A program made the position numbers and the translations under genes. Under the pieces are notes generated by a model that saw only the letters and a list, made by a program, of their open reading frames with translations, made no database searches and was not told the DNA's origin. From Marinobacterium lutimaris (lineage in GTDB: Bacteria > Pseudomonadota > Gammaproteobacteria > Pseudomonadales > Balneatricaceae), in contig NZ_FNVQ01000001.1 of NCBI RefSeq assembly GCF_900108065.1, positions 1,178,001 to 1,242,000 on the forward strand: a DNA stretch of 64,000 nucleotides. Direction: 5' to 3'. Of this stretch, positions 17,586 to 41,565 are shown piece by piece. Each line of letters starts with the position of its first letter. Within the stretch, counting starts at the first letter, position 1.

Positions 17586-17600
17586 CGATATTTATTATCA
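17586..17600. promoter_or_regulatory. Fur-box-like site before the two-component system
   Basis: CGATATTTATTATCA matches the 7-1-7 Fur consensus TGATAATnATTATCA at 12 of 14 defined positions. It lies 21 bases before the response-regulator start within an AT-rich promoter stretch. It implies iron repression of the sensor pair. Confidence 0.6.
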
Positions 17601-19699: not shown

Positions 19700-19759
19700 C
19701 AATTGTAAAAGTTCTTTTATTCATCACTCTCCAAGATAAGAATACGAACATATTGCATT

Positions 19760-19774
19760 TGCGAATCAGTATCA
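19760..19774. promoter_or_regulatory. Fur-box-like site before the TonB-dependent receptor
   Basis: TGCGAATCAGTATCA matches TGATAATnATTATCA at 11 of 14 defined positions and lies 10 bases upstream of the receptor start. The 85-base gap after the kinase suggests a separate promoter for receptor and transporter. Confidence 0.42.
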
Positions 19775-19784
19775 TCTGGAGAGT

Positions 19785-21749: not shown

Positions 21750-21822
21750 ACGCTGCTTCTCTTGTGAGCCTGCGGCCCTTTGGCACCAGGCTCTTTTTCA
21801 GTTTGGCCACCGGATTCATTCA

Positions 21823-24054: not shown

Positions 24055-24055
24055 T

Positions 24056-26232: not shown

Positions 26233-26281
26233 AGTATCTATTCCCGAGAACTTATTTTCGTTATTTGATTCATAGTTTAGC

Positions 26282-26300
26282 CTTAAATCTACCGTTTAAG
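26282..26300. promoter_or_regulatory. Inverted repeat in the LysR/oxygenase intergenic region
   Basis: CTTAAA-N7-TTTAAG forms a perfect 6-bp dyad between the divergent lysR and oxygenase starts, the place expected for a LysR operator. The site is inferred from position and symmetry only. Confidence 0.35.
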
Positions 26301-26347
26301 ACAGCGGCCTATCGATAAAAAACCTATAAAAATAATAGGACTATCTT

Positions 26348-27400
26348 ATGTTTATCAAAAACTGCTGGTATGTAGCTGGCTGGTCAAGCGAGGTCTCTAG
26401 CTCAAGCCCCCTTTCTCGTACACTTCTTAGCACCCCTGTTGTGTTTTGGAGGGATTCTTCAAATAATGTCGTCGCCTTCGAAGACATGTGTTGCCATCGA
26501 GGCGCCCCTCTTTCAAAAGGTCGTATCGAAGAAGACAGCTTGCGCTGCATGTACCACGGCTTGTTATTCGACAAAAACGGGACCTGCATCGAAATCCCGG
26601 GACAGGATCGGATACCTCCTAAAACCAAGGTGAGAAAATTCCCTATTGTAGAAAAACATAAGTGGATTTGGATCTGGATGGGAGACGAGGAAAAAGCGGA
26701 TCCTGAAAAAATCCCTGCTACGCCTTGGCTTGATCATCCGGACTGGAGAAGCCGGGAAGGTTATACCCACTACGACACTAATTACCTTTTGATTACAGAC
26801 AACCTCCTAGATCTTGCTCATATTCCATATGTTCATGCGGATACTTTGGGTGGTGATGAAGCTTATGCAGCATGCACTCCTGAGATCACACGTTTGGAAA
26901 ACGGGGTGAGAATTACAAGATGGGGCGAAGGCATAAAGCCAGCACCTTTTCTAAAAGGAGTCAAAGATTTTTCTGGCCTGGTCGATCGATGGAATATATA
27001 CGACTTTACTCTGCCAGCAATTTTCCTTATGGACTCAGGAATGCAACCGACCGGTCATGGGGCCAAAGAAGGTAATAGATACGCCGCTGCGGAGTTTAGA
27101 AGCACTCAAGCACTTACGCCAGAAACTGAAGAATCAACACATTACTTCTTCGCTCAGCCACACAATTTTGCAATTGATCGTCCAGATGTTACTGATGCTA
27201 TTCATCAAAGCGTAATAAAAGCCTTTGAAGAGGATCGTGACATGATTCAGGCTCAAAACGATTTTCTAAAAATGAATACTGATTTTGAGATGATTTCAAT
27301 TGGCGCCGACTCAGCTTTGTCATATTTTCGCTGGCTTGTTTCAAAAACAATCAAGGAAGAACAAGAGGAAAAGCCAACAGTCCAAACTCATGAGGCATGA
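26348..27400 (+). CDS. VanA-like Rieske non-haem iron oxygenase
   Basis: A 350-residue oxygenase component of the phthalate/vanillate class. Rieske [2Fe-2S] ligands are Cys48, His50, Cys67 and His70 (CCHRGAPLSKGRIEEDSLRC-MYHG). The mononuclear iron site is DNLLDLAHIPYVH with His158 and His163. Length and start (MFIKNCWYVAGWSSEV) match vanillate O-demethylase oxygenase VanA, which converts vanillate to protocatechuate with VanB. Relatives act on other methoxy-, sulfo- or N-methyl substrates, so the substrate is not certain. The reductase gene follows with a 4-base overlap (ATGA). Confidence 0.88.
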   Translation: MFIKNCWYVAGWSSEVSSSSPLSRTLLSTPVVFWRDSSNNVVAFEDMCCHRGAPLSKGRIEEDSLRCMYHGLLFDKNGTCIEIPGQDRIPPKTKVRKFPIVEKHKWIWIWMGDEEKADPEKIPATPWLDHPDWRSREGYTHYDTNYLLITDNLLDLAHIPYVHADTLGGDEAYAACTPEITRLENGVRITRWGEGIKPAPFLKGVKDFSGLVDRWNIYDFTLPAIFLMDSGMQPTGHGAKEGNRYAAAEFRSTQALTPETEESTHYFFAQPHNFAIDRPDVTDAIHQSVIKAFEEDRDMIQAQNDFLKMNTDFEMISIGADSALSYFRWLVSKTIKEEQEEKPTVQTHEA

Positions 27401-28353
27401 TAATGAATACTTGGATAGTGGTTCAGGTAGAAGAGATTCGTCATGTATCCAAGGGCGTAGTGAACCTAACGTTAATAGCCTCAGACGGAATGCCATTACC
27501 TATTGCGCCAGCAGGTAGCCATATAGATTTGCGTTTGCCTAATGGCGTGATTAGACAATATTCTGTTCACGACTGTAGCGACGGCCGATACCATCTGGGT
27601 ATCGGCCTCGCGGAGTCCTCTAGAGGTGGCTCTCTTTTCGTTCATGGGCGTCTTACCAAAGGCGATACGCTGGAGGCATCTCCACCACGTAATCTCTTTG
27701 CCTTAGACTATGAGGCAGAAGGTTTCCTATTCATTGCAGGTGGGATAGGTATTACCCCCATACTTAGTATGGTGCGCTGGTGCAAAGCTCACAATAGGCC
27801 TTGGAAACTCCTGTATAGCGGGCGAAGCCGGGATCGAATGGCCTATATCGATGAAGTCAATACAAGCATTAACGCGGAATTACATTTTAGTGAAGAATCC
27901 GGAAGCCATCCGGATATACAGAGCTATATAAAATCAATAGGGCCGAAAGATCATCTTTATTGTTGCGGTCCAGGCCCCATGATGGATTCAGTTGAAAGCT
28001 TCGCTGAGGGTTTGATTGATTCTGACCGTTTACATTTTGAGCGTTTTAAAGCCCCTGAACCTGCCTCATCGAATTCGGTCACTGACAAAAGTTTCAAAGT
28101 TACCCTGTCATCAAGTGGCAAAACGATTGAAGTTCCGCCACATCTGTCACTACTGGAAGCTTTGGAAAGTGAAGGTATCTCTATACCTTTCTCGTGTCGA
28201 GAAGGCATGTGCCGCACCTGCGAATGCAGGGTTTTAGAAGGGAAAATTGATCACCGCGATTATGTACTTTCTGATTCGGAGCGAGAATCAAACGAAGTAG
28301 TGTTGCCGTGTGTTTCTCGTGCGGAGAGTGATTCACTAATAATTGAGGCATAA
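27397..28353 (+). CDS. VanB-like phthalate-dioxygenase-type reductase
   Basis: A 318-residue NAD(P)H:ferredoxin-type reductase, electron donor to the oxygenase. Domains in order: FMN-binding (about 1-100, RQYSVHD), NAD-binding (about 105-220, GGIGITPILSMVRW), and a C-terminal plant-type [2Fe-2S] ferredoxin (about 235-318) with FSCREGMCRTCECRV and a last Cys in LPCVSRA. This is the VanB/phthalate dioxygenase reductase order. The start is ATG 27397 overlapping the oxygenase stop, or possibly ATG 27403 (MNTWIVV). Confidence 0.9.
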   Translation: MIMNTWIVVQVEEIRHVSKGVVNLTLIASDGMPLPIAPAGSHIDLRLPNGVIRQYSVHDCSDGRYHLGIGLAESSRGGSLFVHGRLTKGDTLEASPPRNLFALDYEAEGFLFIAGGIGITPILSMVRWCKAHNRPWKLLYSGRSRDRMAYIDEVNTSINAELHFSEESGSHPDIQSYIKSIGPKDHLYCCGPGPMMDSVESFAEGLIDSDRLHFERFKAPEPASSNSVTDKSFKVTLSSSGKTIEVPPHLSLLEALESEGISIPFSCREGMCRTCECRVLEGKIDHRDYVLSDSERESNEVVLPCVSRAESDSLIIEA

Positions 28354-28432
28354 ATTATAAAATTTAAATACGTTAAAAAATAAAAACATACCAAATAATA
28401 ATATTGGTTTTATTTGCAATAAAGGGTGAAAC

Positions 28433-29467
28433 ATGAAAATAAAAAACAAACTCGTCCGGGCAATATCTTTAGGCACAACTTTAATGCTTTCAACCTCTGC
28501 TATGGCAGCCACTGAGCTCCGTGTTGCTACATGGATGCCACCGACTAATGCACAAAATGCTGACGTATGGCCAACATGGGGAAAATGGGTTGAAGATGCG
28601 ACAGAAGGACGCGTTAAAGTGGTTGTCGAACAAACCTCAGGTGATCCTGGAAGCCTGTTCAACCTTGTTGAAGATGGTGTTTACGACGCAAGTTTTAGCT
28701 ATCACGGTTATCTTCCCGGCCGTTTTAAACTACCTCAAATAGTCGAACAACCCGGGCTTGGAGTTGGGGCTGAGTCAGCCTCCGTGGCACTGTGGCGTGT
28801 TTATAACAAATATTTTTCCGATTCGTATGAATTCGATGGGCTCGAGCTGATTGGTATGTTTACTCACGGCCCTGGCGTACTTCATTCTCGTGAACCTATT
28901 AATTCTTTAAGTGATTTAAAAGGTAAGAAAATCAGAATTGGTGGGGGCGTACAAACCGAAATAGGCAACCGTCTGGAAGTCACTCCGGTAGCTGCCCCCG
29001 CCCCAAAAGTTTACGAGATGCTACAACAAGGCATTATTGATGGGACATTCCTTCCTATTTCAGAGCAGAAAAATCTAAGACTGAATGAAGTAGCACCGAA
29101 TGTCACCATATTTCCGGGTGGTCTGTATTTGGGCAGCTTCTCAATTTTCATGAATCCCGATTTTTTGGAAAGCCTAAGTGCGGAAGACCGGGAGGCGATT
29201 CTTGGCGTATCAGGCGAAAAACTTTCTGCGATGGCTGGTAAGGCTTGGGAGCGGATTGATGCAGTTGGTTATAAAGCAGCCGAGGAAAAAGATGTGCATG
29301 TTAATAACATCGATGGTAATTCGCCTGTGGCTAATTCTTTTTACAAAGCAATAAATGGCATGAAAGAAGACTGGGTTACCAGTGTTTCTGACAGGACGGA
29401 TATGGCCGAAACTGCAATGGATGAGCTTTGGGAAATTGCCCGAGACTATGAAAACGCCAAGCAGTAA
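28433..29467 (+). CDS. TRAP transporter solute-binding protein (DctP family)
   Basis: A 344-residue periplasmic protein: signal peptide about 1-25 (cleavage near SAMA-AT), then the DctP fold (TELRVATWMPPTN). RIGGGVQTEIGNRLEVTPVAAPAPKVYEMLQQGIIDG contains the helix and arginine region that binds the carboxylate of the ligand in TRAP receptors. The RBS AAAGGGTGA precedes it. With the next two genes it forms a tripartite Na+-driven organic acid importer. Association with a Rieske oxygenase suggests an aromatic or methoxylated acid as substrate, which is inferred. Base composition is AT-rich, like the genes before it and unlike the two after it. Confidence 0.9.
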   Translation: MKIKNKLVRAISLGTTLMLSTSAMAATELRVATWMPPTNAQNADVWPTWGKWVEDATEGRVKVVVEQTSGDPGSLFNLVEDGVYDASFSYHGYLPGRFKLPQIVEQPGLGVGAESASVALWRVYNKYFSDSYEFDGLELIGMFTHGPGVLHSREPINSLSDLKGKKIRIGGGVQTEIGNRLEVTPVAAPAPKVYEMLQQGIIDGTFLPISEQKNLRLNEVAPNVTIFPGGLYLGSFSIFMNPDFLESLSAEDREAILGVSGEKLSAMAGKAWERIDAVGYKAAEEKDVHVNNIDGNSPVANSFYKAINGMKEDWVTSVSDRTDMAETAMDELWEIARDYENAKQ

Positions 29468-29474
29468 AAAGGTG

Positions 29475-29996
29475 ATGAATATGTCTATGGGTGCATGGGT
29501 AAATGCACACTACGACGAGATCGGGCCAATCAAATGGTTGGCCCTGGGTCTCGAAGTGGTTGCTGCAACAGTCCTGTTTCTGATGATGGCAATGACCTGC
29601 GTAGACGTGACCGGTCGCTATCTGTTTTCCAACTCACTCGACGGCGCTACGGAGCTGACCCGTATAGGGTTGGCGGTCATGGTGTTCGCCGAGCTGCCGG
29701 TGGTGACCTGGCGCGGCGGGCATATCGTCGTGGATCTGCTCGACAGGGTATTAGGTAACAGGATCGTCAAGGCTCTGGGTCTGTTGGCCGCGTTGGCCGT
29801 ATCCTCGTCCATGTATTTCATAGGTGCCCGTATTTTCGATCTGGCCGAACGCTCGCTGCGACGTGGCGTCGAGACTGAGTACTTGGGTCTGCCTACCGGT
29901 TATATCATCGAATACATCGCGGTTATGAGCTGGTTCACGGCGTTGGGGATGTTCACGTATGGCATCTACCGCATCTTCGCTGGTTCTAACAATTAA
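29475..29996 (+). CDS. TRAP transporter small membrane subunit (DctQ family)
   Basis: A 173-residue protein with four membrane helices and the DctQ signature (TCVDVTGRYLFSNSLDGATELTR). The start is put at ATG 29475 (or 29481) because an AAAAAGG Shine-Dalgarno lies at 29466-29472. A longer frame to 29382 would overlap the binding-protein gene by 86 bases and has no such site. It bridges the receptor and the large permease. Base use is clearly more GC-rich than in the preceding gene. Confidence 0.88.
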   Translation: MNMSMGAWVNAHYDEIGPIKWLALGLEVVAATVLFLMMAMTCVDVTGRYLFSNSLDGATELTRIGLAVMVFAELPVVTWRGGHIVVDLLDRVLGNRIVKALGLLAALAVSSSMYFIGARIFDLAERSLRRGVETEYLGLPTGYIIEYIAVMSWFTALGMFTYGIYRIFAGSNN

Positions 29997-30020
29997 CCCT
30001 GCTGTACAAAGGTACCGCCT

Positions 30021-31349
30021 ATGTCTTTCGTACTGATCGGCTTTGCCGCTCTGCTATTGCTCATTATTGTTGTCCGGGTGCCAATCGCATTCGCCATGGG
30101 GCTGGTCGGCTTTCTCGGGTTCGCTGCATTGCAGGGGCTAGGGTTCGACAACTTGTTTAACTTCCGCTGGACCGGTGCACTGTCGATGGCCTCCTACCGG
30201 GTTATCGATACGGTGCAGGAATACAGCCTGTCCGTTATCCCGCTATTCGTTCTGATGGGCAACCTAGTTACACGGTCTGGCCTATCGAATGAGCTTTATC
30301 ACGTATCCAACGCCTTCCTGGGGTATCGCAAGGGTGGATTGTCGATGGCCACCGTGGTCGCCTGCGGTGGGTTTTCCGCGATCTGCGGTTCGAGCCTGGC
30401 CACTTCGGCAACAATGGCCCGGGTGGCGATGCCGCCTATGCGTAGATACGGCTATTCCGATGCGTTGGCCACGGCATCCATCGCCGCTGGCGGCACGCTA
30501 GGTATTTTAATTCCGCCCAGCGTGATTCTGGTTATCTATGGTCTTCTGACTGAGTCTTCGATCCGCGAACTCTTCGCTGCCGGCTTCATCCCGGGACTGT
30601 TGGGTGTGCTGCTTTACTTGGGGGCCGTGCGCTATGTGGTCTGGCGAAACCCGGCTGAAGGCCCGGCCGGTGACAAGATGCCCTGGTCTGAGCGTCTACT
30701 GGCGCTGCAAGGGGTATGGGGAGTAGTACTGCTGTTCACCATCGTTATGGGTGGCATTTACTTGGGTGTTTTCACGCCTACAGAGGCGGCGGGCATTGGT
30801 GCTGGTGGTGCCTTCCTGATCGCGCTCGCGCGTCGCCGGCTGAGCCTTGCCGCGCTATTTGAGACCCTGACCGACACGGCCCGCACCTCGGCGATGCTGT
30901 TCGCGGTGGTCATCGGCGCGCTAATCTTTTCCGACTTCATTAACCGCGCGGGTCTGCCAGACATGCTGCTCGGGTTCGTCAACGGACTGGATGTAGCACC
31001 CATTGTTGTAATCCTGGCGATCCTCGGCATCTACATTGTGCTGGGCATGGTGTTTGAGAGTCTGTCTATGATGCTGCTGACTGTACCGGTGTTTTACCCG
31101 CTGGTGGCCAGCATGGGCTTCGACCTAGTCTGGTTCGGCATCGTCGTTGTGGTCGTGACCGAGATCAGTCTTATTACGCCGCCGGTGGGGATGAACGTTT
31201 TCGTACTGAGTGCGGTATTACGGGATGTGAAGACCGGCACGATATTCAAAGGCGTCACGCCGTTTTGGTGCGCTGATATTGTTCGCCTTGCATGCATTGT
31301 ATTCGTAGTGCCTATCTCTATGTTCTTGCCAGATCTGCTTTATCGCTGA
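30021..31349 (+). CDS. TRAP transporter large permease (DctM family)
   Basis: A 442-residue permease with about 12 hydrophobic segments, DctM/SiaM family: PIAFAMGLVGFLGFAALQG near the start, GGFSAICGSSLATSATMARVAMP and AGGTLGILIPPSVILVIYG in the first half, and VFTPTEAAGIGAGGAFLIAL in the second. It forms the Na+-coupled elevator with DctQ. The gene is GC-rich like dctQ. No obvious terminator was found directly after it. Confidence 0.93.
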   Translation: MSFVLIGFAALLLLIIVVRVPIAFAMGLVGFLGFAALQGLGFDNLFNFRWTGALSMASYRVIDTVQEYSLSVIPLFVLMGNLVTRSGLSNELYHVSNAFLGYRKGGLSMATVVACGGFSAICGSSLATSATMARVAMPPMRRYGYSDALATASIAAGGTLGILIPPSVILVIYGLLTESSIRELFAAGFIPGLLGVLLYLGAVRYVVWRNPAEGPAGDKMPWSERLLALQGVWGVVLLFTIVMGGIYLGVFTPTEAAGIGAGGAFLIALARRRLSLAALFETLTDTARTSAMLFAVVIGALIFSDFINRAGLPDMLLGFVNGLDVAPIVVILAILGIYIVLGMVFESLSMMLLTVPVFYPLVASMGFDLVWFGIVVVVVTEISLITPPVGMNVFVLSAVLRDVKTGTIFKGVTPFWCADIVRLACIVFVVPISMFLPDLLYR

Positions 31350-31745
31350 TCTAACCCAGGAGCTTAACCTGTTAAGGTGAATCGATGGATTTCCCAGAAT
31401 AATAGGCCAAGATATTCAGCGCTGCTTTTCATCTCATTACGTCAGTAATAAAAATATAGTCGCGCTGTCCTGGTTTGATGCAGAAAGGTTATTATATAAA
31501 AATCAGAATTAAAAAATTCTTAATTATTAACTACCACCCTATTCCTCGCGCGATATTTCTGTGTTTTTAACGCCAAGCGAGAAAAGATGGTTAGGTATAA
31601 TTACTGTGATGAATATAATAAAAATCATTTCAGAAAAATTGAGTTATATATTTTCCAAATAATATTATGATAGTTATAAGCTAGGATGTTTTTATAAAAA
31701 AACATCCTAGTAGTAATTCATATTATAAAAATAATTAAGAGGTGG
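31350..31745. other. AT-rich gene-free spacer before the AraC regulator
   Basis: 396 bases, very AT-rich from about 31430 on. It has no coding frame. It holds the perfect inverted repeat at 31681-31710 and a weaker one (AGAATT-N4-AATTCT, 31505-31520). It probably contains the promoter of the AraC-family gene; no confident -35/-10 pair was chosen because AT richness makes chance matches common. Confidence 0.5.
31681..31710. repeat. Perfect 13-bp inverted repeat upstream of the AraC gene
   Basis: CTAGGATGTTTTT (31681-31693) and its exact reverse complement (31698-31710) are separated by a 4-base loop. It ends 35 bases before the AraC-family start. There is no T run after it on the + strand, so a simple terminator is less likely than an operator or a leader hairpin of the AraC mRNA. 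Confidence 0.65.
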
Positions 31746-32711
31746 ATGATGACATTATTCTTATCTCTATTTGATCAGGAAATTAAGGATGTTTCTGCCT
31801 TGGAAATATACAACTTCCTAAGAAATAACAAGTTCTCTGATTATCGTTTAATACGAAGCGATAGTGTATCGAGCGGTTCCAGCGTCAGATACAAGGATTT
31901 AGGTCCACTTCAAATTGCAGAATATACCAACGGATGTGCAACGGAAGAACGCATTCTAATACTAAAAGAGGCTTATCACTTACAGCTGATTCTGGGTGGC
32001 CAAAGTTCCGTTATTTTTGACGGCGAAACCATCGAATTGGGACCTGGTGACTCGGTCATGCTCTCTTCAGGCACAAAGTATATGCAGACTTACTCTCCTG
32101 GTTCTAACCATCTGAGTGTCCGCATCCCGCTGGATTTCTTGCACCAGTCTGCACGCGAGTTTGGATATTTCCCCGCTGGAGCCCCTATCAGGTTTGTTCC
32201 CTATTGTGTCAACGTTTTAAAACAAGGTGCGATACGGCATATCTTACGCGATATTCTGGAACTCAAAGCATCAGCGACAAGCGAGCGCGCACAGCTTTAC
32301 TACGCGAAGCTTCTCTGTCACGGAATACTGCAAAGTCACCAAAGCGATATCTGCCTGAATAATAGGGTTACAAGGTCCGAGCACCGGCATATCGCCCAGG
32401 TCCGTGGCTATGTACTCGACAACATAACAGATGACATCAACATTCAGGCCTTGGCGTCTCTATGTCGTATCAGCAGAAAATCGTTGTACAACCTGTTTGA
32501 GCGGGAGACTGGACTGACCCCCTCCCTTTATATCCGCCAATTGAAGCTGGAAATTATTTACGCAGAGCTCAGCGGCGACTTAGACAACATACGTAACGTT
32601 ACCGAAGTCGCAATGAAATATGGCTTTACGAATCTCGGGCGTTTTTCCGCTCAATATCGCGATCATATTGGCGAACTACCTTCCGAGACACTGCGCCGAC
32701 AGAGTCACTGA
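31746..32711 (+). CDS. AraC-family transcriptional regulator
   Basis: A 321-residue regulator. The N-terminal half (about 30-190) resembles the AraC_binding_2 cupin-like sensor domain of XylS/FeaR-type regulators. The C-terminal about 100 residues carry two helix-turn-helix motifs (INIQALASLCRISRKSLYNLFERETGLTPSLYIR, and ending GFTNLGRFSAQYRDHIGELPSE). The start is ATG 31746 or 31749; AGAGG (31738-31742) fits the latter better. It lies between the TRAP operon and the petrobactin operon and may regulate either; its AT-rich composition and orientation favour the catabolic/TRAP block. Confidence 0.87.
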   Translation: MMTLFLSLFDQEIKDVSALEIYNFLRNNKFSDYRLIRSDSVSSGSSVRYKDLGPLQIAEYTNGCATEERILILKEAYHLQLILGGQSSVIFDGETIELGPGDSVMLSSGTKYMQTYSPGSNHLSVRIPLDFLHQSAREFGYFPAGAPIRFVPYCVNVLKQGAIRHILRDILELKASATSERAQLYYAKLLCHGILQSHQSDICLNNRVTRSEHRHIAQVRGYVLDNITDDINIQALASLCRISRKSLYNLFERETGLTPSLYIRQLKLEIIYAELSGDLDNIRNVTEVAMKYGFTNLGRFSAQYRDHIGELPSETLRRQSH

Positions 32712-32998: not shown

Positions 32999-33865
32999 TC
33001 AGACCGCAAGGGATTGGTGGCATGCGTCTGCCGCCAGCATCCCTGCTTGGAGATCGCCTGTTAAGGATGTAATCGCTCTACAATCCCGCGCCAGCACGTT
33101 TTTTACATCCGGCCCGAACCATTCGAGCGATGCATCCAGCAGCCCCATTGAGCCCAAAGATTGCAGAAACGTACGGTAGTCGAACGCACCCTCCAGCAGC
33201 GGCACCATGCCATCGCGAGAACCCGCCGCGGCATACACATTGGCCGGTGCAAACACGCCGAGATTCTCGCGCTTGTCGATGTTTTTTAGATGGAAATGAC
33301 ACACCCGGGGAGCCAGGACTCTGAGGCTTTCCAGCGGATCGTCGCCCGCCTCCCAGAGATGCAGCACATCGAAATTGATACCCATGGCGGGGTGATCAAC
33401 CTCCTCCAGCAGCTGGCGGGTCGACGCCAGCGTGTCGGCCAGGGTATTGGGGTGGGTTTCCACTACCAGTTGAACCCCATGCGCAGCGGCAAGACTGGTC
33501 AGATTCCGCAGCCTTGCCACCCAGGCTTTTCTTTCTTCCGTGCTAACAACGGCACTGCCACGATTTCCGGCGAAGGTTCGCAGCTTGGGCGCCTCCCAGC
33601 GATTCGCAAGACGACAGAGTCGCTCCAGGTGCCGTAACGCCCTGACCTCCGATCCTTCCAAGGGCAGATAGTCACTGATCATCGGCACTTCCAGGCCGAG
33701 GGAACCAAGCCAGGCGGCATCGAACTGATCCTCAGGCTCAAGATTGATGGCGTGTGCGCCCCAGAGCTCGATGCCGGCAAAGCCATGCTGCTGGGCCCAA
33801 GTTGCTATATCGCTGAGCGCAATGAGCTGATGCCTGAAGGAGATGGTGCAGACCGAGAGATTCAT
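32999..33865 (-). CDS. asbF: 3-dehydroshikimate dehydratase AsbF (petrobactin)
   Basis: A 288-residue TIM-barrel enzyme of the sugar-phosphate isomerase/epimerase fold that converts 3-dehydroshikimate to 3,4-dihydroxybenzoate, the catechol of petrobactin. It begins MNLSVCTISFRHQLIALSD, nearly the same as Bacillus AsbF, and keeps GFAGIELWGAHA, PMISDYL, ETHPNTLADTL, NFDVLHLWEAGDDP and ASLEWFG. The start at 33865 gives one-to-one alignment with AsbF and makes an ATGA overlap with asbE; an ATG 6 bases upstream (33871) is also possible. GGAGG is at 33876-33880. It is the last gene of the operon. Confidence 0.95.
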   Translation of the reverse strand: MNLSVCTISFRHQLIALSDIATWAQQHGFAGIELWGAHAINLEPEDQFDAAWLGSLGLEVPMISDYLPLEGSEVRALRHLERLCRLANRWEAPKLRTFAGNRGSAVVSTEERKAWVARLRNLTSLAAAHGVQLVVETHPNTLADTLASTRQLLEEVDHPAMGINFDVLHLWEAGDDPLESLRVLAPRVCHFHLKNIDKRENLGVFAPANVYAAAGSRDGMVPLLEGAFDYRTFLQSLGSMGLLDASLEWFGPDVKNVLARDCRAITSLTGDLQAGMLAADACHQSLAV

Positions 33866-34866
33866 ACGCATAAAGCCTCCTGCTTTGAAGATGTCGTCGG
33901 CCCTGACGAAGCATCGCGCTCGCACCAGCGCTCAAACAGCGCCTGCAGTTCTGCCTTTATCCTGAATTCCAGTGCATCCTGGTCGGCGAGCAGTGCGAAA
34001 AGGGAGTCCGCCACCCGGGTCTGGTCTGTGCGCGCGAGCTTCATCGACCGGTACTGCACCTGGGTATAGACCTTGACGAGTTTTTCGACTTCATCGGTCC
34101 AGTGCACGAAGTACGGATCATCCAGATCCTCCCCGAGTGCCTGACAGAAAAAGGCGAACGCATGCTCATAGGCGTACTTTCGTATCGCCATCACCGGGAT
34201 CTCGCGCACTGCAGACTCAAGATCGGCAAGTTCCACACCATCCCGTTCCAGATGCGCACGGACGATGCGCCGCAGCGCATCGGTGAAGGGGTTATGCCGG
34301 TGCTTCATGCAGGTCGCAAAATAGGCGCGCACGGTCTCATCGGCTGTATGCCGCACGTCGATACCATCAAAGAAGAAGCCACCGGCCACGCTGGGTTGAC
34401 TCACTGCATTAAGGATACGCGCCTTGGGCAAGGGCCCTTCCCAGCGGTAATCCGGGTCATGCATAAACCAGATATCAGGATCGTCCGTGGTTTCCAGCAT
34501 CACATAGTGGGGAAAAGGGTTCTGATTGAACTTGTTCTCCCGTTCCGGCAGCTGATACATATCCAGCATCACCATGATATTTCGGTGAGCAGGCCTATTT
34601 TCGACAAGCTCAACGAGCCGCGCCACATTGGCGGCTTTATCCGCGCAGGGGTCGAACCACTCCCGTATTTCAATGCCGTAGAGCTGCTGATACCAGGTTT
34701 TGAAAAAGTCGTGGTTGGTATGCTCGGAATGGTAGGACAGCACCCAGCGATCACTGACCGAAAAGTCGGCATCCCAGACTCCGAAGTAGAAGGGACGGTG
34801 ATCAACCCCCTCACTTCGTTTGATCACCTCACAAACGCAACTGACAAAACAATGCACCTTGATCAT
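33862..34866 (-). CDS. asbE: Petrobactin synthesis protein AsbE
   Basis: A 334-residue protein of the AsbE (DUF6005) family. GVDHRPFYFGVWDADF, YHSEHTNHDFF, LDMYQLPERENKFNQNPFPHYVMLE and DPDYRWEG are all strongly conserved with Bacillus AsbE as I recall it. AsbE transfers 3,4-dihydroxybenzoyl from holo-AsbD to a spermidine amine. It has no membrane segment. Start and stop overlap asbD and asbF by 4 bases each, so translation is coupled. Confidence 0.93.
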   Translation of the reverse strand: MIKVHCFVSCVCEVIKRSEGVDHRPFYFGVWDADFSVSDRWVLSYHSEHTNHDFFKTWYQQLYGIEIREWFDPCADKAANVARLVELVENRPAHRNIMVMLDMYQLPERENKFNQNPFPHYVMLETTDDPDIWFMHDPDYRWEGPLPKARILNAVSQPSVAGGFFFDGIDVRHTADETVRAYFATCMKHRHNPFTDALRRIVRAHLERDGVELADLESAVREIPVMAIRKYAYEHAFAFFCQALGEDLDDPYFVHWTDEVEKLVKVYTQVQYRSMKLARTDQTRVADSLFALLADQDALEFRIKAELQALFERWCERDASSGPTTSSKQEALCV

Positions 34867-35171
34867 CCCGGGCCTCCCTCTACAGCCACCTCGGCGGCGA
34901 TCTCGGGAAATCCGCTCTCCTCCTGCTGCAACTGCAGCAGGAAATCGACCAGGGTATTGACCGTGGCAAAGGCCTCGGCGCTCAGCGCTTCGTCGGGTAT
35001 TTCATAGCCGCATTCCAGCTCAAGATGCAGCAGCAACTGCAGTATCATCACCGAATCGAGATGCAGATCTTCGTTAAGCCGGGCCTCGGGTCTGAAACTG
35101 GCGATATGGGGAATCCTCAAGGAATTCGCCAGCCCATCCCGTATCACCTCTATAAGCTCTTCTCGCTTCAT
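34863..35171 (-). CDS. asbD: Aryl carrier protein AsbD (petrobactin)
   Basis: A 102-residue acyl/aryl carrier protein. The phosphopantetheine serine is Ser40 in NEDLHLDSVMILQLL. The start at 35171 (MKREELIEVIRDG) is chosen because it gives the normal carrier length and an ATGA overlap with asbC; a longer frame to 35309 would lie deep inside asbC. It receives 3,4-dihydroxybenzoate from AsbC and gives it to AsbE. The last about 18 residues are an extra acidic tail (GFPEIAAEVAVEGGPG). Confidence 0.92.
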   Translation of the reverse strand: MKREELIEVIRDGLANSLRIPHIASFRPEARLNEDLHLDSVMILQLLLHLELECGYEIPDEALSAEAFATVNTLVDFLLQLQQEESGFPEIAAEVAVEGGPG

Positions 35172-36430
35172 GCCGACAGTTGCTCCGCGCTGTGCCCGAC
35201 CTGATCCGCCAGCAGGCGGCGACTGATTTTGCCGTTTGGCAGCTTGGGGATCTCTTCGACCTGGGCAATTTCCAACGGGCATTGGTAGGGTGAAAGATGT
35301 TCGGCACACCAGCGTCGCAGCTCATCCTCATCGACCATGCGGTCGGCGACAAACTGCAGGCACACGCGCTCACCGGCGTAAGGATCGGCGCGTTTGAAGA
35401 CAACGACGTCGACAACCCCTTCGCAGGTCAGGACCACATCCTCCACCTCTTTCGGGTACACATTGATACCTGCCACGTTGATCATGTCATCGATTCGGGC
35501 CAGGTAATGCAGAACGCCGTCGCTATCGAAATATCCCAGATCCCGGGTATAAATCGCCTGTTCAGCACCGCGTATGATCACTTCAGAGGGCGCATCGGCA
35601 CTGCTGCCAGATTCGACCTGATAGCGTGCCAGCGGGCGTCCCATTGCACAGGCTGAGCGGGTATCCGTATTGATCGCCACACATCCCGCTTCCGAGCAAC
35701 CGTATTGCTGGAACAGGTGAACGCTGCGTTCACGCAAGGCTTCAAAGTGAGCCTTGGGCATGACGGCGCCGGAAGTCATCACCGCAAACAGTTTTTCACC
35801 TTGAGGCAGAAGCCGCGTCAGCACATGCAAAAGCGTCGGTGCCGCGTACAGCAACGGCTGTGGCAGCTGCGCGAGCTTACGTAGCACATACTTCGGGTTC
35901 AGCTGGGTGAGGACGTGCGCTTCCTGCCCCCGTGCCAGTGAGGCCAGTACACCGCAGATCAAGCCATAGGAGTGCGTCACCGGGCAGGCGATTATTGGTG
36001 TCATTTCCCGCGCCTGGGGCAAGGCTTCCAGGTAGTCCTCCAACTCACGGTCGATAGCCTCCCAGCTACGCTCGATGCACTTGGGCTCCCCCGTGGTGCC
36101 GGAACTTAGCTGCACCAGACCTGGCGGCACCTCGGCCGCGCTATCCGGCTGTAACTCAATGCGCTCAATCTGATCAAAGATCAGCGCGTAACTGCCGCTG
36201 CGTCGGCCCAGCCGTCGTGCGGCCTCCAGCGGCGTGGTCGGATGCAGTGGCAGCACAGAACCGCCGCGTGCTTTTACGTACAGGCATAGCGCAATCCATT
36301 CGACCGGATCACTCAGGCAGACAGTGAGCCGGCGGCCTTTGCACTCACTGATTGCAGCTACCGCGTCAAAGCGGCGGTAGCAACGCTCGAAATGTTCGCT
36401 GTCATAGTAGTTATCATTCAGGTAAAGCAT
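35168..36430 (-). CDS. asbC: 3,4-dihydroxybenzoate-AMP ligase AsbC (petrobactin)
   Basis: A 420-residue adenylating enzyme of the ANL superfamily: P-loop LVQLSSGTTGEPKCIERSW, A5-like QYGCSEAG, A7/A8 TRDLGYFDSDGVLHYLARIDDMIN, and a C-terminal lysine in KLPNGKISRR. It is shorter than typical acyl-CoA ligases (about 520), in keeping with AsbC. It activates 3,4-dihydroxybenzoate and loads AsbD. It overlaps asbB by 13 bases and asbD by 4. Confidence 0.93.
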   Translation of the reverse strand: MLYLNDNYYDSEHFERCYRRFDAVAAISECKGRRLTVCLSDPVEWIALCLYVKARGGSVLPLHPTTPLEAARRLGRRSGSYALIFDQIERIELQPDSAAEVPPGLVQLSSGTTGEPKCIERSWEAIDRELEDYLEALPQAREMTPIIACPVTHSYGLICGVLASLARGQEAHVLTQLNPKYVLRKLAQLPQPLLYAAPTLLHVLTRLLPQGEKLFAVMTSGAVMPKAHFEALRERSVHLFQQYGCSEAGCVAINTDTRSACAMGRPLARYQVESGSSADAPSEVIIRGAEQAIYTRDLGYFDSDGVLHYLARIDDMINVAGINVYPKEVEDVVLTCEGVVDVVVFKRADPYAGERVCLQFVADRMVDEDELRRWCAEHLSPYQCPLEIAQVEEIPKLPNGKISRRLLADQVGHSAEQLSA

Positions 36431-38202
36431 GCTGCAGCCTCATTTTTGCTCAGCGGGTGGAAAGGGTTCGGAATCGGGTGACGGCACTCCGTGGTGATCG
36501 ACGCGCAGAGTTTCCGCCGAAGCAGCGATTCCGTTTGAATAACCGGTGAGGAACATCCCAACAAAGCGGCGCGCTCCGGGTCGCAATGGCCGCCGGCGCT
36601 GTAGTACTCCAACAGGTCGTGTACCTGCTGCCAGAACCTGGTCTCGGGCACGTCATAATCGCGTTCGAGCAGGTTGGAAAGCTCCGTCAGGTTGTAGATG
36701 TAAAGCGTGTCCATGTAGAGCTCGCGCAACGCTTCGACCTCCTGCATCCAGAAAAACCGGTCGGGTGTGTCATCGAGATACACAGGATCGAGCGCACGAA
36801 AGTCGGGACAGAGATCCGGCTGCGCCAGAAAACCCTCGACATACTCCACACTCTCATGAAAATCGCGTACGGCTAGCCGTGTTGGCCAGCCATCACGGTG
36901 TACAAGAATCAGGTTCTGGGCATGCGCCTCCAGCGCAATTCCCTGCGCTACCAGGAGGTGCCATATCGGCAGTACCGTGCACTCAAGCAAGCGCGTCAGC
37001 CAGGCTTTCAGCCCAAAGCGCTGGATCCAGTCATCTATAAACGGACGCCGGTCCAACTCGGTGGCAAATAGTGCCGTGAACGGAACCGCCTGCTCGCCAG
37101 GTTCAAGAGAGGTATTCAGGTTCTCGCGCCAGATGGCACCCAGTTGCCCTTCCAGCTGCTTTTCTGTGCCTCTGAAAAGCAGACCGGCATACTCCTGCAG
37201 CAGGATCAGCGGCGCGACATCAGTGAAAAACGGGTCGCTGTCGACGACCTTTTTCAACCAGGCGGACAGCACCGGTGCCGTGCAGACAGAGTTAGGCTCC
37301 AGGGTGCGAAGCGATGAGGTGTTCACCAGATTCAGCGGCAGCTTGATATGGGCCTTCCCGGGATCCTCTGCGTTGATAAGCGTCCTTATGGACTGGGTTG
37401 CCCGGTACTGCTCCCCCGCCTCACCGAGATAGAGAATCTCGCCCGAACGGATGGGCGCACCCAGCCCTTCACGCTGTAGTGCCTGCCACTGCCAGGGATG
37501 GATCGGCATTAGTCCATAGCGCTCCGGGCTTCCACCGCGTTGAAGAATACGTGCCTGCAGGGTGTTCCAGCACAGATCGCCCAGTTCTCGACGCCAGAAC
37601 GACGCTTCCTCAACTGGGAGGCTGGCGGTCAGCGATCTGCGGTCGATAGCAAGCCAATGCAGGGCAAAGGTTTCACCCGCCTCTGGACCATAGCGCCGAT
37701 GATCTTCAAGGCTAAATCCGGTGCGTGCCTTGAAACAGGGATGATAGGGATGCCCCTCATCGAGCAGGCCTTCAAGCGCCTCGAAAGACAACTGACGACG
37801 ACTTAGCGGCCTTGGCAGACGCCGTGCGTTCCAGTCGCACAAGCGCACCGTCTGTTCCAGCTCTGCATGGAGGCGTTTTCTTATCGCTGCATCTACGTTA
37901 AGCGCGGCGACTAAATCGCCGAGGCCAACCTGGCAGCGCCAGCCGTCTGCGTCGACCCGGCGCAAGCTGTTCTCCTGTACGCGCAGTCTGCCAAACGCTC
38001 CTCTGCGGCCGCGACAAACCAGGTCCAGCTCACCGATCCGGAAATTCAGTTCACCCGTGTTATCGGAAATATCTCCGCTACAGGCGACGGCCCCCTCGAA
38101 CAGCAGCGCTTCAATCAGCTGGCGGATCACGCGTCCTTCCGACATCAGACTTGCTTCAGGCACCGTGAATAGCCTCGGCTCGAGCGAGATCGATCCCGTC
38201 AT
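36418..38202 (-). CDS. asbB: NIS siderophore synthetase AsbB (petrobactin)
   Basis: A 594-residue IucA/IucC-family synthetase. Family motifs are EGHPYHPCFKARTGF, LMPIHPWQWQ, STQSIRT-like RATQSIRTLIN, IKLPLNLVNTSSLR and ALEAHAQN. In petrobactin synthesis AsbB adds the second spermidinyl arm to citrate, usually after 3,4-dihydroxybenzoylation. The ATG at 38202 has AAGGAG 7 bases upstream and lies 47 bases inside asbA. A later ATG at 38145 would avoid the overlap but has no good ribosome site. Confidence 0.94.
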   Translation of the reverse strand: MTGSISLEPRLFTVPEASLMSEGRVIRQLIEALLFEGAVACSGDISDNTGELNFRIGELDLVCRGRRGAFGRLRVQENSLRRVDADGWRCQVGLGDLVAALNVDAAIRKRLHAELEQTVRLCDWNARRLPRPLSRRQLSFEALEGLLDEGHPYHPCFKARTGFSLEDHRRYGPEAGETFALHWLAIDRRSLTASLPVEEASFWRRELGDLCWNTLQARILQRGGSPERYGLMPIHPWQWQALQREGLGAPIRSGEILYLGEAGEQYRATQSIRTLINAEDPGKAHIKLPLNLVNTSSLRTLEPNSVCTAPVLSAWLKKVVDSDPFFTDVAPLILLQEYAGLLFRGTEKQLEGQLGAIWRENLNTSLEPGEQAVPFTALFATELDRRPFIDDWIQRFGLKAWLTRLLECTVLPIWHLLVAQGIALEAHAQNLILVHRDGWPTRLAVRDFHESVEYVEGFLAQPDLCPDFRALDPVYLDDTPDRFFWMQEVEALRELYMDTLYIYNLTELSNLLERDYDVPETRFWQQVHDLLEYYSAGGHCDPERAALLGCSSPVIQTESLLRRKLCASITTECRHPIPNPFHPLSKNEAAACFT

Positions 38203-39985
38203 CGGCGGACTCCTTGTGTGAATCTGCGACTGGGTCGTGCAGCGGGTTGGGTACGCGGGTGTAGACTGCGAGCTCCAGCTCAGCGGTCAACTCATCCACA
38301 TCCTGAACACGGGTCAGCAGATTGGCTTTGTAAGCGAGCTCGGGCTGTTCCAGCAGCTGGTTAACCAGCCGAAGACCCGCGCCCTTCAGATTGCGACGCA
38401 TATCGCTTAACCAGGTTCTCACTTGCTGCAGCAAACTGGCCTCATCAGCCAGACCGTCAGCACCCAGGCGATGGATAACCGCGGCCAGCTGATTCAAGAA
38501 CAGGTAATAACCGAAACGGTCGCGAATCATCGCCTCGCTGTAATACAGCTCTTCTGAATAACGCGCCTGCGGCTCCAGTTCACACAGGTGTTCACGATAA
38601 CTGTCCGCCAGGTAGTAACCCTGATTGTCGCGGTAGTAATACCGGGAGGGATAGCCACCCGAGATATCGAGCAAGCTGTTCTGCTGGTGGGCTTCCAGGG
38701 CGATACCCTGCTCGTCATACAACCTGATAAGCGTATCGACGGCGCAGTGCCAGTAGTGGCCAAACCAGTCCAGCGCCACATCATTGACGTTGCGCCCTTC
38801 TCTAAGCGCCAACCCTTCAATCAAGGTTCGCATTCTGGATGGGCGGCCTGGCAGCGGCTCCTGCAGGATCGCCGCAATCGATTGCACGCCCCGGCGCTCC
38901 CCACCGATAAAGGGGTTATGGCGCAGGATGATCTCAAAACCGGACTCCCCGCCCTCGGGAAGTTGTACGGTCAGCCAGGCCGGGTCCGTTAATACTGAGA
39001 ACTGCGGGTTGCGCTCGACAAAGCCGCTTTTCTCAAGCAATTTGGCCGCGACAACGCCGGCCCTGAGCTCTGAAACCTGGTTGCGACGCAGCGAGTTGGT
39101 CACCTTGACCGGAATCGAAACCTTGAACATCCAAGGGGAGTGATCGCTATACAGCGTCCTGACCGATGAGGTCGGTGTGAACTCAGGGCCAATGGCGCCC
39201 AGGTCGCGCAGAACGCCGGCCTCAATCGCCTGTTTGACCTGAGGCTGGTGAATAAGCCATTGCGCCTGCAGCGGATGAACCGGGATACAGACCTCATCCT
39301 GAGACAGGCCGACATCGCCGAGTACCTCCAGCACCAGGGTTTCTGCGCTGCGCTCAAGCAGAGAATCTTGTCTGACCCAGGCGCGGCGAACGGCAAAACA
39401 GTGCAGACGAAAGTGTCCGGCCAGCTCTGGTGCATAGTGATCCTGCTGCCAGAAGCTCATCCCCTGCCGGCTTTTCGGCGTAGGATGACTCCAGTGCCCA
39501 TATAGAAGGGACTGCTCGGACTCGATAAACCGCTCACCTTCAAGACTGGGATCATCAGCCCTTGCCTCGATAAAGCGAGCCATCAGCTGGCAGCTTTCCA
39601 CCAACCGATAAACCAGCTCAAGCTCCTGCTCACGCTGGCGGTGATCCGCCATGCCAGGATCGTAGAGTTCCCGAACCAGGAGCAACACCGCGTCGAGCGG
39701 GCGCAAGGGAGACCATTGATCGGACGAGTCGTGGTTTACCCAGGCAGAAAGGATACGGTGCCGCCCAATCAGGGAGCGGTAACCGATATCCAGGGCCAAC
39801 CTGCCCCTCAGACCTTTCAGCCGCAGTTCGATGACGCCGATACCGTGGAACAGTCCGCCGAGGATCCTTCGATCCGCCCAGCCGGAACCCGAATGCCACG
39901 CACCGGAATCAGCCTCACGCAGGTAGCAATTTACAAAGTTTTGAAAGGTGGCGTTTTCCGCCACCTCAAGTGCGGTAGGATTCAT
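38156..39985 (-). CDS. asbA: NIS siderophore synthetase AsbA (petrobactin)
   Basis: A 609-residue IucA/IucC-family enzyme, first gene of the operon. Conserved blocks are FVNCYLREADSGAW, SEQSLLYGHWSHPTPKSRQG (HPTPKSRQG at 167-175, ATP/citrate site), PVHPLQAQWLIHQP, TSSVRTLYS, KVTNSLRRNQ and ALEAHQQNSLLD. AsbA joins citrate to spermidine. Sequence and order (asbA to asbF) match the Bacillus anthracis and Marinobacter petrobactin operons. AGAGGAG lies just before the start, and a Fur box lies at 40051-40065. Confidence 0.95.
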   Translation of the reverse strand: MNPTALEVAENATFQNFVNCYLREADSGAWHSGSGWADRRILGGLFHGIGVIELRLKGLRGRLALDIGYRSLIGRHRILSAWVNHDSSDQWSPLRPLDAVLLLVRELYDPGMADHRQREQELELVYRLVESCQLMARFIEARADDPSLEGERFIESEQSLLYGHWSHPTPKSRQGMSFWQQDHYAPELAGHFRLHCFAVRRAWVRQDSLLERSAETLVLEVLGDVGLSQDEVCIPVHPLQAQWLIHQPQVKQAIEAGVLRDLGAIGPEFTPTSSVRTLYSDHSPWMFKVSIPVKVTNSLRRNQVSELRAGVVAAKLLEKSGFVERNPQFSVLTDPAWLTVQLPEGGESGFEIILRHNPFIGGERRGVQSIAAILQEPLPGRPSRMRTLIEGLALREGRNVNDVALDWFGHYWHCAVDTLIRLYDEQGIALEAHQQNSLLDISGGYPSRYYYRDNQGYYLADSYREHLCELEPQARYSEELYYSEAMIRDRFGYYLFLNQLAAVIHRLGADGLADEASLLQQVRTWLSDMRRNLKGAGLRLVNQLLEQPELAYKANLLTRVQDVDELTAELELAVYTRVPNPLHDPVADSHKESADDGIDLARAEAIHGA

Positions 39986-40050
39986 AAGCTCCTCTGTCGA
40001 TCTTTGACGGTCGCGACACGACGACCTAACCGGGACAGAGGAAATCTACT

Positions 40051-40065
40051 TGATAACCATTATCA
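40051..40065. promoter_or_regulatory. Fur box before asbA
   Basis: TGATAACCATTATCA matches the 7-1-7 Fur consensus at 13 of 14 defined positions. It is 66 bases before the asbA start, inside the 119-base gap after the MATE gene. This predicts iron repression of the petrobactin operon from its own promoter. Confidence 0.8.
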
Positions 40066-40104
40066 CTCGCAACAGCATTTACATCTGTTACAAATCATTC
40101 AACG

Positions 40105-41493
40105 CTAATTCATAGACTGACTCGTAGCCTGACTCGTAGCCTGACTAATAGGCTCACAACGGAGCATAGCCCGTTCAGGTGAGAAAGCCCGGTAGCAGCC
40201 TAGTGCCAGACCAAAGGTCACCCACTCCGCGATTGGCAGGGCCACCAATATTGAAACCTGCGGAAACAGGGTCGCAATGGCAAATAGCAATCCTACCGGC
40301 AACACCAGACTGCGAGACAAAGCCACGAACAAAGAGGGCAACGGCTGATGCATTGCGGTCAGATAGATCGACAGACAGACATTCAGGCCATTAACCAGAA
40401 AGAGCGGCCAGACCGCCGCGATAAAATCGTGCGACTGCTCAAGTACAGAGTCGTCCGCGCCCTGGAGAAACAGGCCAATAAGCCAATCACCGCCTGCCAG
40501 TAGCAGCGAAACCAGGACGACCGCCACGCAGGCCACCATCAGAAACGCACTGCTCATGAAGCCACGAATACGGTCCGCCTGCCCTGCCCCCAGGTTCTGG
40601 CTCACCAAAAGATGCACAGCGTCGGCGATACCGTAGTAGATCATCAAGCTTAGAAAGATGGTGTAGTTCACCACGGTGAAGGCCGCTATCCCATCAACCC
40701 CGAGACGACTGACAAGCAGCCAGTTGAGCACCAGTATCACCACCCCGCCGGAGCACTCATTAATGAACTCGGACACGCCGTTATAAGCGACCTTGAACAT
40801 ATCACTCCACTGGCCAGGCCGTAGCTTAAGGTGAAGCTTGCGCCCGGTACGGCGGAAATAGCGCGTCAATACAGCAAACTGAAGCAGTTGTGCTAGCCCG
40901 GTGGCCCACGCAGCCCCGACAAGGCCCAGCTCAAAATGGATAATAAACAGAGCGTCCAACAATATGTTGGCTACTGCCCCCACTGAAAGGGCCAGGGTCG
41001 CCAGGCCGGGCTGCCCATCCATGCGGACAAAGTAGTACAAAACCATGGAGGTAAGCTGCAACACCATGACGACACTGAGCCAGCGAAAGTATGGCCTCAT
41101 GGTAGCGTGCAGGTGGTCAGGTGCGCCCAGCAGCGTTAGTACGCTGCTATCAAACAATAACGCGGTGACCAGAAAGAGCAGCGCCATCGCCACAACGCTG
41201 AGCATGCAGCGGCTGAACACCCCTGAAGCCCGTTCATGATCCCCCGCCCCCAAAGACCGCCCCGCTCGCACAGCGCCACCGATGGCGATCATCAGCGCCA
41301 GGCCAAACACGAGTGTCAGATAGGGAATCATCAGGTTGACCGCAGCCAGCGCATCGGAACTGACAAACCGACCGACAAAAATACCATCGACAATGCTTGC
41401 CGTCGTTATCGCCAGCAAGCCGAGTATTGAGGGTATCGCGTAGCGAACAAACGTCGGAAATATTGCGCCTTGCAGTATCGGGGATCCGTCCAT
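40105..41493 (-). CDS. MATE-family efflux protein, candidate petrobactin exporter
   Basis: A 462-residue inner-membrane transporter with 12 hydrophobic segments in two halves, MATE/MOP type (AIPSILGLLAITTASIVDGIFVGRF, then AVNLMIPYLTLVFGLALMIAIGGA, and the second-half GIAAFTVVNYTIFLSLMIYYGIADAV). It lies directly upstream of asbA on the same strand under its own perfect Fur box. Position and iron control make siderophore export the best guess; drug efflux cannot be excluded. The C-terminus SQATSQATSQSMN is encoded by a 12-base tandem repeat (40113-40148). The ribosome site before ATG 41493 is weak. Confidence 0.88.
   Translation of the reverse strand: MDGSPILQGAIFPTFVRYAIPSILGLLAITTASIVDGIFVGRFVSSDALAAVNLMIPYLTLVFGLALMIAIGGAVRAGRSLGAGDHERASGVFSRCMLSVVAMALLFLVTALLFDSSVLTLLGAPDHLHATMRPYFRWLSVVMVLQLTSMVLYYFVRMDGQPGLATLALSVGAVANILLDALFIIHFELGLVGAAWATGLAQLLQFAVLTRYFRRTGRKLHLKLRPGQWSDMFKVAYNGVSEFINECSGGVVILVLNWLLVSRLGVDGIAAFTVVNYTIFLSLMIYYGIADAVHLLVSQNLGAGQADRIRGFMSSAFLMVACVAVVLVSLLLAGGDWLIGLFLQGADDSVLEQSHDFIAAVWPLFLVNGLNVCLSIYLTAMHQPLPSLFVALSRSLVLPVGLLFAIATLFPQVSILVALPIAEWVTFGLALGCYRAFSPERAMLRCEPISQATSQATSQSMN
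40113..40148. repeat. Three tandem 12-base units at the MATE gene 3' end
   Basis: TAGACTGACTCG, TAGCCTGACTCG and TAGCCTGACTAA run in tandem. On the minus strand they encode the repeated SQAT residues at the C-terminus of the transporter. This looks like recent slippage duplication; the frame is kept. Confidence 0.75.
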
Positions 41494-41546: not shown

Positions 41547-41565
41547 GATGATAATTATTATCATC
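41547..41565. promoter_or_regulatory. Perfect Fur box before the MATE gene
   Basis: GATGATAATTATTATCATC is a perfect 9-1-9 palindrome and matches the 7-1-7 Fur consensus at all 14 defined positions. It lies 53 bases upstream of the MATE start. Confidence 0.9.

Follow-up and report, generated by a model that had tools for sequence, protein, structure and literature searches.

We conclude with high confidence that a 64-kb stretch of the Marinobacterium lutimaris genome (the window, 64,000 nucleotides in full) carries a complete and probably iron-regulated petrobactin locus, with genes for siderophore synthesis, for probable export through a MATE-family transporter and for uptake, and with an unrelated module apparently inserted between its two halves. 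The petrobactin system itself is known from other bacteria; here, it is apparently split by foreign genes, and its transport half is complete. A first-pass annotation of this DNA had described a complete asbABCDEF operon with a linked MATE gene, spanning 41493 to 32999 on the minus strand. The open frames and translations of this span were checked, and all six asb genes are present, as is the MATE gene (minus strand, 41493-40105). However, the locus is larger than was claimed: the uptake genes at 17622-24832 and the stretch that splits the two halves had been overlooked, and the locus reaches left to 17622.

The asb operon and its likely product

The six genes follow the canonical order asbA to asbF on the minus strand (39985-32999), as had been annotated, and all frames are open. 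The ATGA overlaps expected at three junctions are there too: asbC/asbD at 35171-35168, asbD/asbE at 34866-34863 and asbE/asbF at 33865-33862. In addition, the frame coordinates give overlaps of 47 bp between asbA and asbB and of 13 bp between asbB and asbC. The host belongs to the same order as Marinobacter and to a different family. Its genome (5.57 Mb) holds two non-ribosomal-peptide-synthetase-independent siderophore (NIS) synthetases in a whole-genome search, both in the asb operon. The protein search proposed for the Asb set matched the operon to solved AsbF and AsbB, to the family DUF6005 and to related asb operons, and the conservation of genes and residues was scored over 93 related asb loci.

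The clearest assignments are those of AsbF and AsbB. AsbF (32999-33865, minus strand like the rest of the operon, with its start at ATG 33865 or 33871) matches solved AsbF (3dx5) with an E-value of 1.7e-74 as a 3-dehydroshikimate dehydratase making 3,4-dihydroxybenzoate (3,4-DHB). Its residues E136, D166, H192 and E248 align to E142, D172, H198 and E253 of 3dx5, which we take to be the metal ligands, and are identical in all 87 matched loci (93 given). AsbB (36418-38202, 594 aa, with an AGGAG motif before the start at 38202) is a type C NIS synthetase that scores 374 bits (E 1e-110) against solved AsbB (3to3) and 165 bits against the aerobactin synthase IucC; among solved proteins, it is nearer to AsbB than to other NIS synthetases. 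Both 3to3 and 3dx5 are presumably Bacillus proteins. AsbA (38156-39985, 609 aa) is assigned as a type A NIS synthetase from family models, solved proteins and related loci. It is IucA/AcsD-like, with IucA as its best solved match and no AsbA chain among the solved matches listed, and asbA finds a counterpart at 41-54% identity in 92 of 93 related loci, one match being only partial, at a contig end. AsbC (35168-36430, 420 aa) is assigned as the 3,4-DHB adenylating enzyme from family models and related loci; it passes NF006167, a model named only 'acyl-CoA synthetase', with 563 bits at a cut-off of 513. The aryl carrier protein AsbD (34863-35171, 102 aa), also assigned by family models, bears its phosphopantetheine serine S40 in the motif LHLDSVM, and this serine is invariant in 92 of 92 matched loci (93 given). 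One score counts against this protein: AsbD reaches 86.3 bits with the AsbD model NF005798, below the cut-off of 100. The shortfall weakens only the assignment to that model, not the operon. Among the related loci, that of Enterovibrio coralii (L105) has asbB, asbC and asbF each in several pieces, through sequencing errors or decay.

The first-pass annotation had allowed that aerobactin, achromobactin or vibrioferrin clusters might be the better match. This is not so for the operon as a whole, and only AsbA scores best to IucA. As products, aerobactin, achromobactin, staphyloferrin B and rhizoferrin were each rejected on lower AsbB scores and absent partner genes.

AsbE (33862-34866, 334 aa) matches DUF6005 with 502 bits (cut-off 25). 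A confident structure model of AsbE shares its fold with the CtaG/CcbD/AziU3 enzymes when aligned with VIA-align, at only 9-14% sequence identity and a root-mean-square deviation of 3.9-4.5. A sequence profile of AsbE searched against solved structures did not match these enzymes and returned only designed coiled coils, and Pfam, run on 45 AsbE members, found a C39-like match in just two, a weak one. The residues C6, H120 and D137 are invariant in all 45 members. Fold and conservation together suggest that AsbE may be a Cys6-His120-Asp137 acyltransferase of the CtaG/CcbD type, predicted to join 3,4-DHB to spermidine. This model offers a testable catalytic mechanism for a family whose function Pfam still gives as unknown.

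In its genes, their order and their catalytic residues, the operon agrees with that of Marinobacter nauticus, a species that PMC12423834 names as a petrobactin producer. The annotation as an operon of the petrobactin type, linked to a MATE gene, stands. We infer petrobactin, or an analogue close to it, as the likely product. In the proposed pathway, AsbF would convert 3-dehydroshikimate to 3,4-DHB, which AsbC would load onto AsbD; AsbE would transfer it to spermidine, probably via an acyl-enzyme on Cys6, and AsbA and AsbB would attach two such arms to citrate. The MATE protein would then pump apo-petrobactin across the inner membrane, and ferric petrobactin would re-enter through the TonB receptor, the binding protein and the FecCD/ATPase importer. 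A two-component system would control the uptake genes, Fur would repress all three units at plentiful iron, and an unrelated catabolic module would have been inserted between the two halves.

It is unlikely that the locus instead makes a relative of petrobactin, for instance one that is acetylated, sulfonated or built on homospermidine or 4-hydroxybenzoate. Such relatives do occur: asb homologues are reported to yield rhodopetrobactin and methylolanthanin (PMC11317620), and Marinobacter hydrocarbonoclasticus is described as making petrobactin sulfonate as well (PMC6836290). The polyamine genes speE and nspC are both found in the host genome; they count in favour of the petrobactin pathway, and with both present the polyamine supply could vary. 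At the same time, AsbF retains all the presumed metal ligands, and no acetyltransferase was found among 18 scanned proteins of 17622-41493, which cover this span apart from its small frames and the two membrane genes of TRAP; tailoring genes may lie elsewhere. The rhodopetrobactin and methylolanthanin clusters, as described in PMC11317620, have an asbD-asbE fusion, an acetyltransferase and DUF2218, whereas here asbD and asbE are separate and DUF2218 is absent from the genome. The fusion is nevertheless a weak sign, since a single asbD-asbE frame is also open in the gammaproteobacterial locus L017.

That the operon is silent or degraded and yields no product is very improbable. A Bacillus strain that carries asb without making petrobactin is on record in PMC3317741, which tells against reading a product from genes, and the locus has apparently been invaded by a foreign module. 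Yet the six frames are open, their active residues are conserved, and the two units on either side of the extra stretch are convergent, with no gene of either disrupted by it.

Uptake genes, Fur-like sites and the intervening stretch

The uptake half occupies the plus strand. It begins with an OmpR-type response regulator (17622-18323) and a sensor histidine kinase (18320-19699), and continues with a TonB-dependent receptor (19785-21749), a periplasmic siderophore-binding protein (21823-22974), a FecCD-type permease (22975-24054) and the ABC ATPase of a siderophore importer (24038-24832). The regulator, kinase and ATPase are assigned from family models and linkage to asb loci, and the receptor and binding protein from these together with solved chains; the permease is 65-74% identical to asb-linked permeases of the compared loci. 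Receptor, binding protein, permease and ATPase are all homologous to asb-linked counterparts, in an order identical to that of Marinobacter and Methylophaga. The nearest solved chains are Fe-regulated protein B and the ferric enterobactin receptor for the receptor, and siderophore ABC binding proteins for the binding protein. The receptor's next relative within the host genome is just 30% identical. This makes up a candidate ferric-petrobactin receptor with its importer.

Several results pull the other way. The best NCBIfam models point to a heme receptor subfamily (receptor), to ferrichrome/ferrioxamine (binding protein) and to a heme importer (ATPase), all with scores below cut-off. Moreover, the linkage is not universal. 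Among 22 gammaproteobacterial loci, receptor and regulator are found together in 21, the kinase in 8 and the importer genes in 10. Among 13 loci of the host's order, the corresponding numbers are 4, 3 and 3, and the regulator alone is present in 11. These counts cover the sequenced stretch around each locus, and one genome (L018/L038) sits in both sets. As a side observation, a two-component system is tied to the petrobactin receptor in Gammaproteobacteria, where rhizobia use FecIR.

Iron regulation was approached through a palindrome scan of the window with the 7-1-7 pattern TGATAATNATTATCA, allowing up to two mismatches. Three Fur-like palindromes were found, against 0.06 expected in 64 kb, and all lie upstream of the genes in question: one without mismatch (TGATAATNATTATCA) before the MATE gene (41549-41563), one with one mismatch before asbA (40051-40065) and one with two mismatches before the response regulator (17586-17600). 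An alternative pattern, GATAATGATAATCATTATC, was unmatched at up to three mismatches. In a scan of 48 sequences, window included, a Fur-like site precedes the regulator in 25 of 42 cases. Such sites occur in a minority of MATE promoters (14 of 43) and asbA promoters (13 of 39), which speaks against a general rule; three Marinobacter asbA promoters bear a related A+T-rich motif beyond the reach of the scan. The Fur-like pattern thus holds best for the regulator unit, and these operator-like sites indicate that the petrobactin locus is probably regulated by iron.

Between the halves lies a mostly low-GC module (25312-32711) of a LysR regulator, a Rieske oxygenase, a reductase, a TRAP transporter and an AraC regulator. 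The assignments come from family scans, including that of the TRAP binding protein; for the two membrane subunits of TRAP, the assignment was made by eye, from sequence and position. We do not think the module part of the siderophore system. In the window, 8173 bp separate asbF from the ATPase gene, compared with 299-385 bp in 15 Gram-negative loci of like arrangement (13 distinct genomes after two duplicate pairs are merged; the Bacillus-type locus L063, with a gap of 872 bp, was left out for its different arrangement). GC content is 40-50% in seven of the eight one-kb steps between 25 and 33 kb, the step at 30-31 kb being the exception, and 54-62% in the flanks (17 to 46 kb). A DUF2218 gene sits in the asbF-ATPase gap of the 15 compared loci (e.g. 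at 11859-12242 in L037), and a search of the host's whole genome found none. The stretch breaks no gene of either of the convergent units between which it lies, and no convincing terminal repeats were found to bound it. From its composition and the compared gaps, it appears to be a foreign insertion that displaced DUF2218 and parted uptake from synthesis. DUF2218 is also present in 14 of 18 alphaproteobacterial asb loci.

Two of its genes were considered for a part in siderophore biology. A role of the AraC gene beside asbF in siderophore regulation was rejected. AndR (anthranilate catabolism) is its best model, below cut-off, and only weak AraC matches (26%) occur, at 2 of 80 related asb loci, so that the gene is assigned to the extra stretch. 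The Rieske oxygenase has a VanA_C domain, but the idea that it is a vanillate demethylase which supplies AsbC with 3,4-DHB was set aside. Its best solved match is dicamba demethylase, no vanillate demethylase model is among the NCBIfam matches listed, no Fur-like site precedes it, and a gap at that place is absent from all 15 comparable loci. As a neighbour of asbC, an O-demethylase releasing 3,4-DHB would be curious; nothing supports such an activity yet.

The asb-linked MATE transporter

The gene upstream of asbA (40105-41493, minus strand, 462 aa) encodes a MATE-family transporter, which family models, its clade and its conserved place beside asbA mark as a candidate petrobactin efflux pump. 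Counting as neighbours MATE matches of at least 200 bits within 1.5 kb upstream of asbA, we find one in all 13 genomes of the host's order (12 codirectional, one divergent), in 20 of 22 gammaproteobacterial loci (12 codirectional, eight divergent; the remaining two, L031 and L032, end before that point) and in both Myxococcota. By contrast with this constancy, no MATE of the same kind (at least 200 bits) stands beside asb in the 38 Bacillus-type loci, a set that includes a record titled Pseudomonas (L071), or in the 18 alphaproteobacterial loci. Sixteen of 20 sampled Bacillus-type and alphaproteobacterial asb genomes have any MATE match, the best being 30% identical; in the 10 Bacillus-type genomes sampled, the best is at most 30% identical to the window MATE. 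In a tree of 65 MATE rows, one clade (support 99/98) unites all 35 rows linked to asb with five rows from Marinobacter genomes that lack asb; within it, the MATE of the window has that of Methylophaga as its sister. The other 25 homologues, including paralogues from asb-bearing genomes, fall outside.

The linkage is already in print as an exporter hypothesis, and is refuted only for Bacillus MATEs. In PMC5596346, MATE genes came under suspicion as exporters from their place near the petrobactin operon in Marinobacter. The findings of that paper for Bacillus anthracis tell against a MATE exporter: the petrobactin exporter there is described as the RND protein ApeX, and a double MATE mutant still exports petrobactin (at 'wild-type level' in the text, at 72% with an SD of 16 in the table). 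B. anthracis belongs to a lineage without the linked MATE, so the test does not settle the Gram-negative case, and in the papers found by our literature search, none established a petrobactin exporter for a Gram-negative bacterium. Across the genomes compared, a single MATE clade emerges as the candidate exporter in Gram-negative bacteria. It is improbable that the MATE gene encodes a general drug pump and simply stands beside asb. NCBIfam names show that MATE proteins are commonly multidrug pumps, the closest non-linked homologues lack an assigned substrate and, as set out below, MATE outlasts asb in five Marinobacter genomes. What stands against a general pump is the constant place of the gene beside asbA in the Gammaproteobacteria and Myxococcota examined, in two orientations, together with the single clade of asb-linked MATEs and the perfect Fur-like site before the window MATE.

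A search of 124 Marinobacter-genus genomes (thresholds E ≤1e-60 for MATE and E ≤1e-90 for the receptor) bears on what the transporter does. Fifteen genomes have asbE. All 15 also have MATE and the receptor; among the 109 genomes that lack asbE, MATE is found in 5 and the receptor in 7, which makes 20 and 22 genomes in total. Fisher's test gives p of about 2e-15 for MATE and asbE and 2e-14 for receptor and asbE, with genomes treated as independent despite their kinship. In four asb-less genomes (G230, G331, G357 and G400, with loci L140, L157, L158 and L159), MATE, DUF2218 and the genes for uptake adjoin one another; these are natural receivers unable to make petrobactin. The genes trpD/trpC adjoin 14 of 14 asb-bearing Marinobacter loci (12 distinct genomes) and 7 of 7 asb-less loci examined, a common site that favours loss of asb over its repeated gain. 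The asb-less rows require four label changes on the MATE tree, so losses were repeated, and an identical MATE-DUF2218 junction in L140 and L159 points to one loss before these two split.

That five asb-less genomes keep MATE counts against new petrobactin export as its only function. For the L140/L159 pair, the ratio of non-synonymous to synonymous substitution rates (dN/dS) of MATE is 0.076 at a dS of 0.82, compared with 0.035-0.084 in five asb-bearing pairs. A MATE that is retained and constrained without asb may do more than export new petrobactin. Although clearly the lesser probability, it is possible that MATE serves the recycling of petrobactin, or protection from it, after uptake, besides or instead of exporting new siderophore. 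Four of the asb-less genomes keep it, together with DUF2218 and the genes for uptake, at the trpGDC site that asb-bearing Marinobacter loci also occupy. The constraint in the L140/L159 pair resembles that of asb-bearing pairs, but dS is near saturation and the dN/dS method is simple. Moreover, MATE and kinase of L158 (G357) are in pieces, and a wider detoxifying role would equally explain the retention. Evidence against a strict tie to the receptor comes from G423 (L160, 9645-11332), in which MATE and DUF2218 stand beside trpGDC with both asb and the receptor missing. The converse is seen in G375, G390 and G391 (the last 83% complete), which are asb-less and keep the receptor with MATE missing; G390 (L162) is close kin of G400 (L159), with TrpD 99.4% identical, so MATE is dispensable there. 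In G423, a different TonB receptor and importer lie across the trp genes.

In its specific form, the proposal is tentative and rather doubtful: the asb-linked MATE would return imported, iron-stripped petrobactin to the outside, and would work for uptake no less than for synthesis. Such a role would explain the intact, constrained MATE of receptor-bearing Marinobacter without asbABCDEF. Should it be true, a receiver that is itself unable to make the siderophore would recycle it with a MATE-type pump.

Comparison with known systems and significance

The closest known arrangement is that of Marinobacter (e.g. M. nauticus, L043) and Methylophaga thiooxydans (L030). Like the window, these loci have MATE-asbABCDEF and a convergent set of ATPase, FecCD permease, binding protein, receptor, kinase (in part of them) and regulator. 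Their halves are 299-385 bp apart and enclose DUF2218, whereas those of the window are 8173 bp apart and lack it. The Bacillus operon has the six biosynthetic genes in an identical order; it differs in its transporters (FpuA, Fat and ApeX), in having no MATE of the window's kind beside asb (38 of 38 loci) and no outer-membrane receptor. None of the 18 alphaproteobacterial loci has such a MATE beside asb or a receptor match of at least 250 bits. In Sinorhizobium fredii, the fprA-asb-fat locus is described as a Gram-negative asb operon with a linked TonB receptor and importer, as here, under FecIR sigma-factor control rather than a two-component system (PMC8822346). Alteromonas macleodii, compared by description since no Alteromonas locus is in our set, likewise has a marine gammaproteobacterial asb cluster, whose product is reported as confirmed at m/z 719.361; the cluster contains PepSY and hypothetical genes (PMC8776838). 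The first-pass view that petrobactin is known mainly from Bacillus and Marinobacter is therefore too narrow: asb is spread across Gammaproteobacteria, Alphaproteobacteria and Bacilli (PMC8776838, PMC8822346).

The locus adds a further lineage to the likely petrobactin producers and displays the full Gram-negative form of the system, with synthesis, MATE, receptor, importer and two-component control. Its wider interest lies in the mechanism proposed for AsbE and in the question of what the MATE does, for which the natural asb-less genomes allow the export of new product and recycling to be told apart.

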